Both the position numbers and the translations under genes were made by a program. Shown in pieces: positions 15,975 through 21,034 of a stretch of 64,000 nucleotides of DNA; the stretch's first letter is position 1, and each line of letters starts with the position of its first letter. The notes beneath the pieces are model-generated. The model worked only from the letters and a program-made list of their open reading frames with translations. It was not told the origin of the DNA and made no database searches. This DNA comes from Oscillospiraceae bacterium (GTDB lineage Bacteria; Bacillota; Clostridia; Oscillospirales; Acutalibacteraceae): the NCBI GenBank assembly GCA_015066625.1, contig SVOC01000011.1:1-64000 (forward strand), written 5' to 3'.

Positions 15975-16008
15975 GCCTACGGATTTTTTTATCCGTAGGC
16001 AATTTTTT
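15975..16008. terminator. Bidirectional terminator between the GH110-like gene and gatB
   Basis: GCCTACGGAT (15975-15984) and ATCCGTAGGC (15991-16000) are perfect arms. T-runs lie on both strands, so it can serve both converging genes. Confidence 0.8.
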
Positions 16009-17416
16009 ATTTATTGAGTTCTGCTTCAAGCATTTCTCTGATGACATCGGGCGAACCGTTGCCTCTGAGTTCCTTCATAACACAGCCGAAAAGTGACTGC
16101 ATAGCCTTTACCTTGCCGTTTTTGTAATCTTCAACAGCTTTGCCGTTTTCTGCAATTACCTTGCAAACCGTTTCAAGAATGAAGCTGTTGTCAATCTTCG
16201 CATTAAGTGAATTTTCTTCACAGTATGCATCAACGTCAACATCGTTTTCAAATACTGCCGAAAGAACCTTTTTACCTGCAGCGCGGGTAATTTCTCCGCC
16301 TTCAACAAGCTCAATTATTCTTGCAAGCTTTGCAGGCTCGATTTCAAGGCTTGTAAGCTCAAGACGCTTCATCTGACCCATGCATTCGGTGAGAATCCAG
16401 CTAGCCGCAGTTTTTGCGCTGCAACCCATAGCAACAACCTTGTCGAAGGTATCGCTGAGCTTTCTGTCAGAAGCGAGAACGCCTGCTTCCTTAGCGGCAA
16501 TTCCCATTTCCTCATAGTGACCTGCTTTTTCTTCTGCAGTTGCAGGCATACTTGCTCTGATTTCTTCAAGCCAAGCGTCATCAATTACGATGGGCATAAG
16601 GTTGGGGTCGGGGAAGTAACGGTAATCCGCAGCAGTTTCTTTGTTACGCATGGGGAAGGTGCGTCTTTTAACATCATCCCAGCGGCGTGTTTCCTGAACA
16701 AGAACCTCGGTGTGACGCTCAATGGCATCAACGTGGCGGACCTTTTCGAATTCAATTGCATCCTTTATTTCGGAAAGCGAGCTCATATTCTTGATTTCCG
16801 AGCGTACACCAAGTTCATTTGAGCCTTCGGGACGCACGGAAATATTGACGTCGCATCTCATTGCGCCTTCTTCACATTCCGAAATACCTGCAAACTGAAG
16901 GCTTGATTTAAGCTTTTTAAGATAGGTGATAACCTCATCTGCACTGCGGAAGTCGGGACGGCTTACGATTTCGATGAGGGGTACGCTGGTACGGTTAAAG
17001 TCAACAAACGAAGTGTTTGTGGCTTCGTCATGAACAAGCTTACCTGCATCTTCCTCAACGTGAATCTGCTTGATGCCGATTTTTCTTTCGCCAAGGTCAA
17101 CACAGCCGTCAACGCATATGGGATTGAACCACTGTGTAATCTGATATGCGCATGGAAGGTCGGGATAATAGTAGCTCTTTTTATCGAATGTTGTGTACTG
17201 ATTGATTTTACAGTTAAGCATAAATCCTGCTTTTACTGCCAGTTCAATGGCATGCTTGTTTGTAACGGGCAGCATACCGGGCATACCGCTGCAGGCAGGG
17301 CACACGCAGTCGTTGGGCTCCTTGGGGCTTGAATGACCGCCGCAGGAGCAGAAAAGCTTTGAGTCTGTTGAAAGCTCAACGTGAGTTTCAAGACCGATAA
17401 CAAGTTCGTATTTCAT
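16007..17416 (-). CDS. gatB: Asp-tRNA(Asn)/Glu-tRNA(Gln) amidotransferase subunit B
   Basis: 469 residues from the ATG at 17416 with GGAGGCATAATT. GatB phosphorylates the misacylated amino acid on tRNA and transfers ammonia to it. Conserved parts are present: GLETHVEL, the zinc-binding cysteines in FCSC and CPACSG, HVEEDAGKLVH, NRTSVPLIEIVS, FPDPNL, and a complete C-terminal YqeY-like tRNA-binding tail. Unlike its partner GatA, nothing essential looks lost. It is the last gene of the aspS::gatC-gatA-gatB operon, 2 bases behind gatA. Confidence 0.95.
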   Translation of the reverse strand: MKYELVIGLETHVELSTDSKLFCSCGGHSSPKEPNDCVCPACSGMPGMLPVTNKHAIELAVKAGFMLNCKINQYTTFDKKSYYYPDLPCAYQITQWFNPICVDGCVDLGERKIGIKQIHVEEDAGKLVHDEATNTSFVDFNRTSVPLIEIVSRPDFRSADEVITYLKKLKSSLQFAGISECEEGAMRCDVNISVRPEGSNELGVRSEIKNMSSLSEIKDAIEFEKVRHVDAIERHTEVLVQETRRWDDVKRRTFPMRNKETAADYRYFPDPNLMPIVIDDAWLEEIRASMPATAEEKAGHYEEMGIAAKEAGVLASDRKLSDTFDKVVAMGCSAKTAASWILTECMGQMKRLELTSLEIEPAKLARIIELVEGGEITRAAGKKVLSAVFENDVDVDAYCEENSLNAKIDNSFILETVCKVIAENGKAVEDYKNGKVKAMQSLFGCVMKELRGNGSPDVIREMLEAELNK

Positions 17417-17418
17417 AA

Positions 17419-18609
17419 TTATGCCTCCGTCCTTTCAACGCCGTGAGCAATGCTCAGAAGAACGCTTTCCTTGAATGAATCTGCAATAAGCTGAACACCC
17501 TTTGCAGAAAGTGCAGGCATACCGGTGATTGAGGGAATAGCGGTAAACACACTTTCCTCATAAACCTTTTCAAATGCACTGAGTGCATCGTAAGGCTTGT
17601 ATTCGGTTTTGCCGCATACGGGAGTAAGAATTGCATCGTATGATGTAAGAATTGCTTTTACCTTATCGCATACTACTCTGCGGATTCTGAGAGCCTTGTC
17701 ATAGCAGTTTTCATATCTGCCCTTTGAAAGTACATCTGAACCGTAGATAACAGTTGCCTTTGTGAGGAATCCGAAAGCTTCGGTTCTGCTCTTTACATAA
17801 AGCTCATCAATGTTTTTGTATTCGGGAGTGCGGTAGCCGTATTTAACACCGTCAAATCTTGAAACATTGTTGCAGGTTTCTGCTGCCATAAGAATCTGCC
17901 AGGCAGTTTGTGCCTGCTCAACGCAGTCAAGTGAAACGGTTTCAACCGTTGCACCAAGTGACTTTATTTTTTCTGCATATGCATCAATCTTTGCCTTTAC
18001 ATCACTGTCAGCCTTTTCATAAAGCTCGGCAATAATGCAGACCTTCATTGATGAAATATCTTCAGCAAGAGAATATTCATATTTTTCCTGAGGAAGGCTT
18101 GTGCCGTCTTTACTGTCGTGACCTGCTATAACACCAAGGATATCCCTGATATCTGCAGCGTTTGATGCATATACACCAACCTGCTCGCCTGAAGCGGCGC
18201 AGGAGATAATTCCGTAGCGTGAAACCGTACCGTAGGTAGGCTTAATGAAATCAACATCTGAAAGAGCAGCCGCACGTCTGGGCGCACCGTTAAGGTCAAC
18301 ACCGATTGCCGCCTTGATTTGACCTTTTGCGATAAGTTCAGCAGCCGCACCTCTGATACTGCCGTTTTCTGTTACGGGTCCGAAATATGATGTTTCGCCT
18401 GCAAGATCAAGTCCGAATTCGCCAACATTGGTTTTGCCTGCGATTTCACAGCCTGCTTTTTCAAGCCTTTCAACAGCTTCGGCGCTGAAAAGGGGCTTGA
18501 AATTTTCGAGCATACGGGAGCCTGCGGTTGCGGGTACATCCTTCACAAGAATTGTATCGTCAACGGCAACAGTGCCCGATTTATTGATTGTATTAATAAA
18601 ATATCCCAC
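17419..18609 (-). CDS. gatA: GatA homologue that has lost the amidase catalytic triad
   Basis: About 396 residues, against roughly 485 for typical GatA. The GTG at 18609 is chosen because GAGGTG precedes it; a GTG at 18618 is the alternative and is used for numbering. The fold is recognisable throughout (GKTNVGEF, KPTYGTVSRYGI, VIAGHDSKDGTS, SRFDGVKYGYR). All three triad positions are changed: catalytic Lys (family VAIKDN) reads VAVDD with Asp20, the cis-Ser loop (GGSSGGSAA) reads GSIRGAAAE (86-94) after a deletion, and the nucleophile (DTGGSIRQPA) reads DLNGAPRRAA (108-117). The N-terminal helices are missing. It cannot be a normal glutaminase and may act as a scaffold. The frame is intact, so it is not a decayed pseudogene. 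Confidence 0.85.
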   Translation of the reverse strand: MGYFINTINKSGTVAVDDTILVKDVPATAGSRMLENFKPLFSAEAVERLEKAGCEIAGKTNVGEFGLDLAGETSYFGPVTENGSIRGAAAELIAKGQIKAAIGVDLNGAPRRAAALSDVDFIKPTYGTVSRYGIISCAASGEQVGVYASNAADIRDILGVIAGHDSKDGTSLPQEKYEYSLAEDISSMKVCIIAELYEKADSDVKAKIDAYAEKIKSLGATVETVSLDCVEQAQTAWQILMAAETCNNVSRFDGVKYGYRTPEYKNIDELYVKSRTEAFGFLTKATVIYGSDVLSKGRYENCYDKALRIRRVVCDKVKAILTSYDAILTPVCGKTEYKPYDALSAFEKVYEESVFTAIPSITGMPALSAKGVQLIADSFKESVLLSIAHGVERTEA

Positions 18610-18619
18610 TTTTAACACC

Positions 18620-20725
18620 TCACTTTACAAGTCTGGGAACCTGCCAGCTGTCCTCTGTACTCTGAGGAGCGCCGTCAAGGAGTGCCTTGCGCTCAAAGGG
18701 CTGTTCACGCTTATCACTGCGAAGAATGTTGGTCATAGGCATAACATATACCATAGGCTCAACATCTGCTGTGTCAATCTTTTCAAGTGCAGCTTCATCT
18801 TTGAGCATATTTTCAAATATCTTTGTCATTGTTTTCTTTTCGTCGGCAGTGAAGCTCAGTTCGTTAACCTGTTCAAGGCTTTCGAGTCTGTCTTTCTTGC
18901 TGACGATTGCTTTTGCACCGCTTACCGCAGATGCGAATGAACCGCTGTCGCCGCCGTCTGAGCCGAGAGTTTCAACGCTGCCCTTGCCTCTGATGCTTAC
19001 GTTTGCTTCAAAGAGCTGAAGTTCAGTAACTTCACCGGGTGCGCCGAGCATCTGATCCTGAGCAGTACCGTCAAGGGGGAATGCAATAACATCGCGGATT
19101 GTTTCGGTGTCTGCAAGAAGCATAACAATTCTGTCAACACCGGGTGCCATACCTGCATGAGGGGGAGCACCGAACTGGAATGCGTTGTAAAGTGCGCTGA
19201 ATCTTCTTTCAACCTCATCCTCACTGTATCCCGCAATTTCAAAAGCTTTTCTCATGATTTCGGGGCTGTGATTACGGACTGCACCGGAAGCAAGCTCTAT
19301 GCCGTTGCATACAAGGTCATACTGATATGCAAGGATTTCAGTGGGGTCCATTGTTTCAAGAGCATTAAGACCGCCCTGAGGCATTGAGAAGGGGTTGTGT
19401 GTAAAAATAATTTTATCTGTTGTTTCGTCGTGTTCGTACATGGGGAAGTCAACAACAAAACAGAATTCAAATGAATCGTTCTTTATAAGCTCAAGCTCAT
19501 TGCCCAGCCATGTGCGGATAACGCCTGCGTTCTTACTTGCAACCTCTGCATTTGTATCGCAGATGAAGAAGATTGTTTCGCCTTCCTTAACACCGGTAAG
19601 CTCAACAATTTCTTTCATTTCATCGGGAGTCATAACCTTGCTGATGGGGTCATCCTTGAAGCCGTAGTTTGCGGCATCAAGAAGAGTAATATGTGCAAGA
19701 CCTGCCATCTTTGCCTGCTTTGTTGCGAAAGCAAGTGACTTATCGAAGAACCATCTTTCGTTCTTGCAGGGTGCAACAATAGCTCTTACATACTTGTTCA
19801 TAAAGGGCTTGAATTTGACTCTCTTGAACAAATCCGTTACATCGCAGATAACAAGGGGATTGCGGAGGTCGGGCTTATCGGAGCCGTATTTCGCCATTGA
19901 TTCCGCATAAGGAATTCTTTTGAAGGGTGAAGCGGTAACTTTTTTATCCGAGAATGTGCGGAAGATATCGCTTACAACATCTTCACAAACCTGAAGAACT
20001 TCTTCCTGAGTTGAAAAAGCCATTTCAAAGTCAAGCTGATAGAATTCACCGGGTGAACGGTCAGCTCTTGCATCCTCATCTCTGAAGCAGGGAGCGATCT
20101 GATAATATTTATCAAATCCCGATACCATTAGAAGTTGCTTGAACTGCTGAGGAGCCTGAGGCAGGGCGTAGAATTTGCCGGGATGCTTACGGCTGGGAAC
20201 GAGGAAATCTCTTGCACCCTCGGGTGAAGAAGCTGTAAGAATAGGAGTCTGAATGTCAAGAAAGCCTCTTTCTTCCATAAGTCTTCTCATATGACCGATA
20301 ACTTTTGAACGGAGGAGAATATTGTTATGGAGTGCAGGGTTTCTCAGGTCAAGAAATCTGTGCTTGAGACGGATGTTCTCATTTGTATCGGTTGAGCCGA
20401 TTTCAAAGGGAAGATCGCGGCTGCATACGCCGAGAACTTCAAGCTTATCAACAACAAGCTCAACAAGACCTGTTTCGATTTTGGGGTTAACCGTGTTTTC
20501 GTCACGCTTTGTAACTATACCTTCAACAGAAAGAACAGTTTCCTTGCTGACGCCTTTAAGCAGGTTTTCGTTGTGAACAACAACCTGTGTAACGCCTGTT
20601 TCATCACGCAAGTCAACAAAAAGAACGCCGCCGTGGTCACGGATAACGTCTACCCAGCCTGCAAGCATTACGGTCTGGCCGATATGCTGTTCTCTTATTT
20701 CGTTGCAACGGTGAGTTCTGTACAT
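18620..20725 (-). CDS. aspS: Aspartyl-tRNA synthetase fused to GatC
   Basis: 701 residues from the ATG at 20725 (ACGGAGGTATGATAAA upstream). Residues 1-580 are a complete bacterial AspRS: OB-fold anticodon-binding domain (WVDVIRDHGG, His31), motif 2 (FRDEDARADR), GAD insertion, motif 3 (GAPPHAGMAPGVDR). After a Gly/Ser-rich linker (about 582-611) the last 90 residues (18623-18892) match GatC: an N-terminal helix pair (VNELSFTADEKK), TADVEPMVYV, NILRSD and a C-terminal DSWQVPRLVK. GatC normally is a separate protein of about 95 residues that joins GatA and GatB. Here it tethers the amidotransferase to the enzyme that charges the tRNA. gatA starts just downstream of the stop. Confidence 0.93.
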   Translation of the reverse strand: MYRTHRCNEIREQHIGQTVMLAGWVDVIRDHGGVLFVDLRDETGVTQVVVHNENLLKGVSKETVLSVEGIVTKRDENTVNPKIETGLVELVVDKLEVLGVCSRDLPFEIGSTDTNENIRLKHRFLDLRNPALHNNILLRSKVIGHMRRLMEERGFLDIQTPILTASSPEGARDFLVPSRKHPGKFYALPQAPQQFKQLLMVSGFDKYYQIAPCFRDEDARADRSPGEFYQLDFEMAFSTQEEVLQVCEDVVSDIFRTFSDKKVTASPFKRIPYAESMAKYGSDKPDLRNPLVICDVTDLFKRVKFKPFMNKYVRAIVAPCKNERWFFDKSLAFATKQAKMAGLAHITLLDAANYGFKDDPISKVMTPDEMKEIVELTGVKEGETIFFICDTNAEVASKNAGVIRTWLGNELELIKNDSFEFCFVVDFPMYEHDETTDKIIFTHNPFSMPQGGLNALETMDPTEILAYQYDLVCNGIELASGAVRNHSPEIMRKAFEIAGYSEDEVERRFSALYNAFQFGAPPHAGMAPGVDRIVMLLADTETIRDVIAFPLDGTAQDQMLGAPGEVTELQLFEANVSIRGKGSVETLGSDGGDSGSFASAVSGAKAIVSKKDRLESLEQVNELSFTADEKKTMTKIFENMLKDEAALEKIDTADVEPMVYVMPMTNILRSDKREQPFERKALLDGAPQSTEDSWQVPRLVK

Positions 20726-20780
20726 TTTATCATACCTCCGTCCGGACACCGCCGTGCGCAGTGCCGATTACTGATAAATT

Positions 20781-20999
20781 AAAAAATAAAAAGCCCCGAG
20801 AATTTTCACTGAAAAATTCTCGGGACGAGTTATTATTACCCGCGGTGCCACCCGTGTTGATACATTAAAGTATCCTCTCTTTTTATTCAGTTGGGGGAGT
20901 GCCGCTGAAGTGTTGCTGTTCTTACTACTCGTCTGAGTGCGCTTTCAGCCCTTGACGCACAATCTCTGACAGACTTTCCACAAAAGACAGGTCTTCGTT
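20781..20999 (-). promoter_or_regulatory. T-box leader of the aspS::gatC-gatA-gatB operon
   Basis: On the minus strand the T-box sequence GGGTGGCACCGCGGG (about 20838-20854) precedes a terminator with perfect arms CCCGAGAATTTT/AAAATTCTCGGG (20795-20824) and a T-rich tail. The 5' part folds into stem-loops, including TGTGCG/CGCAC closed by GTCTG/CAGAC. Uncharged tRNA would stabilise the antiterminator and switch the operon on. Candidate specifier triplets on the 3' side are GAC (Asp) in CAGACGA and AAC (Asn) in AGAACAG; I cannot decide between them. Confidence 0.88.
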
Positions 21000-21005
21000 A
21001 GAGCA

Positions 21006-21034
21006 TTATACCAAAATATATTTTTATTGTCAAC
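21006..21034 (-). promoter_or_regulatory. Promoter of the T-box operon
   Basis: TTGACA and TATAAT, both perfect, 17 bases apart on the minus strand. Transcription would start near 20999. Confidence 0.85.

Follow-up and report, generated by a model that had tools for sequence, protein, structure and literature searches.

A conserved GatA-like subunit that looks glutaminase-dead in a putative operon for tRNA-dependent asparagine synthesis of gut Clostridia

All GatCAB enzymes known to us make ammonia inside the GatA subunit. A T-box-controlled operon for tRNA-dependent asparagine synthesis in Clostridium acetobutylicum was reportedly described by Saad et al. in 2012, and its glutaminase is said to be canonical. 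An excerpt of PMC4206432 mentions for this species a T-box-controlled tRNA-dependent Asn operon that includes an extra AspRS and an additional GatCAB. The same excerpt argues that the presence of AsnRS and GlnRS without a free asparagine synthetase means tRNA-dependent Asn synthesis.

We analysed a window of 64,000 nucleotides (the whole stretch of DNA under study) from an Oscillospiraceae bacterium (assembly GCA_015066625.1, contig SVOC01000011.1, positions 1 to 64,000). The minus strand of this window carries, in order, an asparagine T-box, an AspRS2–GatC fusion, a GatA-like protein without glutaminase residues (GatA-L) and GatB. This operon context was absent from the initial annotation. 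Because the gene preceding GatA-L is an AspRS–GatC fusion behind an asparagine T-box, the locus seems to be devoted to making asparagine and not to encode a general-purpose GatCAB. The features are as follows.

21005..21033, minus strand: sigma-70-type promoter, TTGACA - 17 - TATAAT (by eye)
20818..21010, minus strand: T-box leader, Rfam RF00230, asparagine type (54.6 bits, E 2.4e-11)
20912-20914, minus strand: T-box specifier AAC (AAC at the same place in 70/73 leaders)
20841-20850, minus strand: T-box antiterminator core, TGGCACCGCG (sequence reading)
20784..20824, minus strand: hairpin plus T-run forming the intrinsic terminator of the T-box (sequence and stem fold)
18896..20725, minus strand: AspRS2, bacterial type, with GAD domain (domain and family matches; start and end of this part estimated)
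18620..18895, minus strand: GatC domain fused to the C-terminus of AspRS2 (Pfam GatC, 39.7 bits; TIGR00135, 47.3 bits against a cut-off of 47.1)
17419..18618, minus strand: GatA-L (open frame, Pfam Amidase, structure and family alignment)
18559..18561, minus strand: Asp20, replacing the catalytic Lys (D in 89 and E in 4 of 93 GatA-L sequences)
18355..18357, minus strand: Ile88 in the cis-Ser column (L in 88 and I in 5 of 93)
18283..18285, minus strand: Ala112 in the nucleophile Ser column (A in 66, S in 20, T in 4, Y in 2 and another residue in 1 of 93)
17497..17502, minus strand: junction of a missing 10-residue C-terminal loop, between residues 373 and 374 (alignment with canonical GatA)
16007..17416, minus strand: GatB, with kinase/transamidase residues and Cys motifs in place (family match and residue reading)

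The GatA-L frame is open and encodes 399 aa. It matched Pfam Amidase with 188 bits, and its best matches among solved structures were GatA chains; its score against the NCBI gatA equivalog TIGR00132 (276.8 bits) was below the curated cut-off (481.1). Alignment with canonical GatA showed that the catalytic triad is absent, its places being taken by D20, I88 and A112. The initial annotation had read the Lys, cis-Ser and nucleophile Ser positions as Asp, Arg/Ala and Ala; the first and the last of these were borne out, but the cis-Ser assignment was one column off, since the pair's first Ser falls at Ile88 and its second at Arg89. The cis-Ser column within GGSSGGS was set by what we take to be the S. 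aureus numbering, S154 and S178, 24 residues apart. In line with the proposed deletion of N-terminal helices, the N-terminus is about 50 residues shorter than that of GatA chains, and residue 16–19 aligns with their residues 49–77. As for the proposed deletion of the Gly/Ser loop, 7 residues directly before the loop are gone, but the loop itself is replaced. An additional loss, not listed previously, is the deletion of the 10-residue C-terminal loop after residue 373, which presumably carries the Asp recognising the glutamine amide. This Asp is D418 in yeast (excerpt of PMC4027206). Across the family alignment the motif residues were lost rather than displaced. At the sequence level, with triad and glutamine loop gone, GatA-L looks catalytically dead as a glutaminase, yet conserved, and the proposal that the complex would lack glutaminase activity looks correct.

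A search of 60 related genomes (own genome included) detected GatA-L orthologs in 11 further members of the genus, while three other families each contributed a single genome with the gene. At an identity of at least 43%, 15 of 396 genomes in a sample of the order carried GatA-L (own genome included); given the identity and length cuts this is a lower bound, because three lower-scoring cases, G208, G041 and G037, proved to be deeper members. Canonical GatA proteins among the matches listed were at most 41% identical to GatA-L and mostly about 90 residues longer. Four lower-scoring cases were re-read. G208 and G041 encode apparently glutaminase-dead proteins of 33–37% identity that lack GGSS and have E and D in place of the Lys; gatC is unfused there, and the gene order matches that of the window operon. 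G037 has a lone protein of this kind, and G038 (L029) retains the Lys and GGSS residues. The three deeper, apparently glutaminase-dead proteins, with 29–37% identity, lie at L268:2928-4067 (plus strand), L270:2360-3265 (minus strand) and L269:2338-3573 (minus strand). The order aspS-gatC-gatA-L-gatB with a separate gatC was seen at L268 and L270, and neither GatB nor AspRS was seen in the 6 kb examined at L269.

A scan of named species genomes revealed 265 encoded relatives, and the best 80 were kept for locus analysis. These 80 are metagenome-assembled genomes labelled mostly Clostridia, Oscillospiraceae or Lachnospiraceae, many of them from ruminant gut samples, and this version of the enzyme is widespread, with many uncultured gut bacteria carrying it. 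In 93/93 distinct GatA-L sequences, window included, the Lys site holds an acidic residue (D or E) and the cis-Ser site holds L or I. Since both losses are common to every sequence, they are not due to chance. The count of 93 leaves out duplicate rows, the broken or cut copies at L050, L054, L136 and L223, canonical GatA, and two atypical proteins, L029 and L030, the latter being the G041 gene. The nucleophile column was more variable; the one sequence without A, S, T or Y there is L139, which has F. In a phylogenetic tree constructed without the three deeper proteins (L268, L269, L270), a single branch with SH-aLRT 100 separated 30 GatA-L from 14 canonical GatA sequences. Most simply, the glutaminase site would have been lost once, long ago, and the protein retained ever since. 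G046 has a canonical GatA in addition to GatA-L. Broken copies of GatA-L were observed at L050 (G014), in two frames, and at L223 (G155), with one in-frame TAG; each is either an assembly error or a recent loss.

Comparison with the nearest relative revealed 97 synonymous and 21 non-synonymous changes in GatA-L (dN 0.024, dS 0.433, dN/dS 0.055), a pattern that is not neutral, and dN/dS values of 0.011 for GatB and 0.023 for AspRS2–GatC. Over 12 further pairs, dN/dS ranged from 0.061 to 0.213 in GatA-L, from 0.014 to 0.071 in GatB and from 0.031 to 0.073 in AspRS2–GatC, and GatA-L had the highest value of the three genes in 12/12 pairs (simple Nei–Gojobori counts over whole open frames). Purifying selection on GatA-L is clear, yet the constraint is looser than on its partner genes, which is what one would expect of a subunit retaining its surface after losing its chemistry. 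Moreover, 42 positions are highly conserved and common to GatA-L and 13 canonical GatA proteins. The suggestion in the initial annotation that the protein is kept for another purpose agrees, so far as sequences can tell, with purifying selection and with the retention of the same losses in relatives.

GatB was described as apparently intact, in line with its residues: E10, H12, EEDAGK at 121, EIVS and NIS, placed by eye against yeast GatB, are all retained, and its Cys motifs are presumably Zn motifs. The places of these residues are those of ATP/Mg residues named for yeast GatB in the excerpt of PMC4027206. GatB follows GatA-L in 79 of the best 80 loci of the 265 relatives. AspRS and GatC are present in 77 of these 80 loci, the other three lying at a contig edge, and fusion of the two was observed in 71 of the 77 with a readable AspRS (71 fused, 6 separate, 3 off contig). 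In the window, the whole AspRS2–GatC ORF spans 18620–20749 (minus strand), contains RDHGG at residues 37–41, and likely starts at the ATG at 20725. RDHGG was found in 85/92 AspRS2 proteins of GatA-L loci, the other 7 being cut or unreadable, and is shared by PDB chains 4rmf, 5w25 and 5gro, which are named tRNA(Asp/Asn) ligase; PDB 6hhv, named tRNA(Asp) ligase, has RDLGG, and the other AspRS of the own genome has RDLGA. The RDHGG residue is a mark of relaxed tRNA choice in AspRS, and from this motif we infer that AspRS2 is non-discriminating.

The T-box was found by a permissive scan, its 54.6 bits being below the Rfam gathering score of 93; at the gathering threshold, the Rfam scan gave no match, and the fold of the whole leader had a z of only -1.45. 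A survey of 95 loci, from which 3 without AspRS and 8 without readable upstream DNA were set aside, left 84 usable loci, and the T-box core was present in 72 of them. Including the window, the specifier was AAC followed by a purine in 70/73 leaders, the exceptions being L049, L100 and L214. The core was not found in 12/84 leaders, 10 of which belong to the deeper GatA-L branch; this branch may be regulated otherwise.

We then considered how the cell obtains asparagine. The own assembly comprises 2.37 Mb in 32 contigs and is 97.7% complete. GatA-L was its only amidase-family (PF01425) match, so that no second functional gatA was found. AsnRS, GlnRS, GluRS and a second, unfused AspRS are present, as is LysRS, recognised by size and sequence. 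No asparagine synthetase was found in this 97.7% complete assembly, neither AsnA nor AsnB; the sole weak Asn_synthase (PF00733) match was rejected as an AsnB candidate, the gene being a GMP synthase. The own genome thus has the gene set, AsnRS and GlnRS with no free synthetase found, to which the argument in PMC4206432 for tRNA-dependent Asn synthesis applies. Use of the complex for Gln-tRNA was likewise rejected, since GlnRS is present and such a role is not needed.

AsnA is an ammonia-dependent synthetase (excerpt of PMC4206432). Within the genus it was found in 0/12 GatA-L genomes and in 20/25 congeners without GatA-L (Fisher p 3.3e-6), and within the order in 0/15 against 237/381 other genomes (Fisher p 7.5e-7), p values that overstate the evidence because the sampled genomes share ancestry. 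G208, G041 and G037 were also not among the order genomes with AsnA. Seven genera (g1, g17, g21, g79, g89, g94 and g136) each include a GatA-L genome and a congener that has AsnA and no GatA match; an eighth, g24, fits the same pattern with the caveat that its AsnA genome has a weak GatA match and 7% contamination. Some route to asparagine (AsnA, GatA-L, or an AsnB-type match with E < 1e-30) was present in 36 of the 37 genus members, the sole exception, G022, being 63% complete. AsnB accompanies GatA-L in 2 of the 12 GatA-L genomes of the genus (G002 and G011), and G041, a deeper GatA-L member, has a strong AsnB match.

Bacterial GatCAB recognises the U1-A72 pair of tRNA-Asn, according to the excerpt of PMC4206432. 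In 51 genomes, tRNA-Asn genes were sought by DNA searches, and 30 loci were read; a pattern search gave no match. U1-A72 tRNA-Asn was detected in 6/26 GatA-L genomes and in 0/25 others (p 0.02), and was not seen in 20 of the 26. In 6/6 cases the gene either closely follows 5S rRNA or shares an rRNA/tRNA cluster with it. The loci are L162:450-525 and L173:179-254 (G006, G002) and L181–L184, all in GatA-L genomes; G002 carries both U1-A72 and G1-C72 tRNA-Asn. Among the named GatA-L loci, L119 goes with a U1-A72 gene and L072 with a G1-C72 gene. Partial tRNA-Asn-like matches in G196 and G368 were rejected, ARAGORN finding no tRNA gene there. In the own genome, the sole tRNA-Asn detected is of the G1-C72 form. 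The region after 5S rRNA is often missed by assemblies, and either a U1-A72 copy lies in an unassembled rRNA region of the own genome or the GatB of this branch accepts G1-C72. On two contigs of the own genome, C20 and C9 (L209:150-330 and L208:2700-2860), a repeat of about 110 bases precedes a partial tRNA-Asn that consists of the 3′ part, as though the tail of this tRNA had been carried along by a mobile element.

As a whole, we consider it fairly probable that this operon makes asparagine on tRNA, with GatA-L as a non-catalytic scaffold and free ammonia as the nitrogen donor. On accumulation of uncharged tRNA-Asn, the T-box would open transcription. A presumably non-discriminating AspRS2 would charge tRNA-Asn with Asp, and GatB would phosphorylate and then amidate the Asp side chain. 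The GatC domain, covalently tied to AspRS2, would keep GatA-L and GatB close, thereby joining the charging and the amidating enzymes. Nitrogen would enter the assembled complex as free ammonia/ammonium, with no glutamine hydrolysis by GatA-L, and the product would serve as the cell's asparagine supply. We propose that GatA-L stays because GatB needs a scaffold and the outer half of the ammonia tunnel. Free ammonium is the simplest nitrogen source, and probably the one used, given that GatA-L appears unable to produce ammonia and that the genome yielded no further amidase match. The ruminant gut is high in ammonia. AsnA itself runs on ammonia, so that its replacement by this operon would be in keeping with such a source. 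A GatB-type enzyme with its glutaminase bypassed, yeast GatFAB, uses NH4Cl in vitro (excerpt of PMC4027206). Several observations count against this account: the G1-C72 tRNA-Asn of the own genome and the 20 of 26 GatA-L genomes in which no U1-A72 gene was seen, the AsnB of G002, G011 and G041, the canonical GatA of G046, and the 12 leaders in which the T-box core was not found.

A bolder version, to which we give only tentative credence, is that GatA-L is an ammonium-capturing portal whose invariant acid at the old Lys site draws NH4+ into the tunnel, that the lineage as a whole has turned from glutamine to ammonia, and that a separate U1-A72 tRNA-Asn is the carrier for asparagine synthesis. 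The lineage-wide turn is suggested because the GMP synthase of the own genome also has no glutaminase domain. This gene, just past the window (L226:1017-2018, minus strand; own contig C14:65016-66017), encodes 333 aa (326 from the first ATG) and consists of the ATP-pyrophosphatase and C-terminal domains only; an N-terminal glutaminase domain was found neither in it nor in the neighbouring ORFs scanned. When the own genome was searched for domains of the class I glutaminase type, HisH, which lies in a his operon, was the single match. Together, the GMP synthase and the lone HisH match hint at a wider habit of ammonia use. In a motif search for PyrG, CarB and class I glutaminase covering about 32% of the own genome, no PyrG or CarB motif was seen.

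If GatA-L were an adaptor, ammonia could instead come from a separate enzyme docking on it, such as an asparaginase/GatD-family protein or another glutaminase, much as GatD serves GatE in archaea. An asparaginase-family gene does lie near 18 of the 80 operons (L095, L101, L102, L119, L131, L136 and 12 others), downstream on the operon strand in 10 of the 18 and within 120 bases in 8 of those 10. This neighbour could be a nitrogen donor of the GatD kind or could simply serve asparagine catabolism. The L119 protein scored 117.5 bits against gatD and 121.7 against type I asparaginase, both far below cut-off; its matches to the gatD profiles began no earlier than position 52 or 72, and the N-terminal domain of GatD was not seen. 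However, no asparaginase-family gene was seen in the flank at 62/80 loci, 8 of the 18 genes are not downstream on the operon strand, and no asparaginase motif was present in the window or in the roughly one third of the own genome that was read. The gene is too inconstant across the 80 loci to be a required partner, and asparagine as a nitrogen donor would make a futile cycle, so that we regard a docked donor as rather unlikely. An AlaX-like alanyl-tRNA editing gene was observed downstream of gatB in the operon direction at 19/80 loci (L087, L088, L091 and 16 others), no more than 60 bases from the operon end in 12 of these; its product might act in the pathway by trans-editing or deacylation. 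Neither an asparaginase-family nor an AlaX-like gene lies beside the window operon.

Other readings dispense with free ammonia as the donor or with amidation altogether. That GatA-L still hydrolyses glutamine through displaced or new catalytic residues could be argued from the D/E20 of all 93 sequences and the Ser or Thr in the nucleophile column of 24; we consider it very improbable, given that the sequences share no nucleophile in this column, where A, S, T, Y and F are all represented, that Lys and cis-Ser are missing from all 93, and that the glutamine loop is deleted. It is improbable, too, that the complex and AspRS2 have given up amidation and now act structurally or as regulators, for instance by sequestering Asp-tRNA-Asn. 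That the own genome showed a tRNA-Asn without U1-A72 would suit such a role, but the active-site residues of GatB are kept under slow evolution (dN/dS 0.014–0.071), the T-box reads Asn, and AsnA and GatA-L occur together in no sampled genome. Finally, loss of the triad, dN/dS above that of GatB and AspRS2 in all 12 pairs and the two broken copies (G014 and G155) might indicate a decaying pseudogene. This is scarcely credible and already contradicted by the dN/dS of 0.061–0.213, the single clade of 30, the 42 positions common with canonical GatA, and a frame that is open in the window and in most relatives.

The favoured account, a scaffold subunit beside a GatB fed by free ammonia, would have consequences beyond this locus. 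A widespread family of GatA proteins that look dead but are conserved constitutes a natural experiment separating the structural from the catalytic role of the subunit, and the system is suited to testing whether GatB runs on free ammonia in the cell. It would also connect the nitrogen supply of the gut to the route by which asparagine is made. Automatic annotation would tend to name GatA-L as GatA or amidase, and would thereby imply a glutaminase that appears to be absent. In the open-licence literature, seen mostly as titles and abstract openings, we found no paper on a glutaminase-dead GatA. Judged from its genes, the locus looks like a new form of tRNA-dependent asparagine synthesis with a conserved, dead-looking GatA.

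Compared with canonical GatCAB, the system has the same GatC, GatA-like and GatB subunits, gene order and GatB active site, whereas GatA-L has neither the Lys-Ser-Ser triad nor the glutamine loop, its N-terminus is shorter, and GatC is fused to AspRS. The operon of Clostridium acetobutylicum resembles it in the extra AspRS, the additional GatCAB, T-box control and, as proposed here, tRNA-dependent Asn synthesis; the present system differs from it by the joining of GatC to AspRS and by a glutaminase that appears dead. In Deinococcus/Thermus and Bdellovibrio, as presented in the excerpt of PMC4206432, AsnRS and GlnRS likewise occur with GatCAB in the absence of AsnA and AsnB, together with a non-discriminating AspRS such as AspRS2 is proposed to be; their second AspRS, where present, is of the archaeal type, whereas here it is bacterial and GatC-fused, and the glutaminase appears to be absent. 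Archaeal GatDE offers a parallel in that here, too, a GatB-like transamidase might draw its nitrogen from something other than an amidase, given the asparaginase-family neighbours, but the present enzyme is GatB, not GatE, and the asparaginase gene is no constant partner. Ammonia-using NAD synthetases (excerpt of PMC3376133) and AsnA also use free ammonia where relatives use glutamine. Unlike the pathway proposed here, they are not tRNA-dependent, and the glutaminase subunit that is absent from them appears here to be retained in a dead form.
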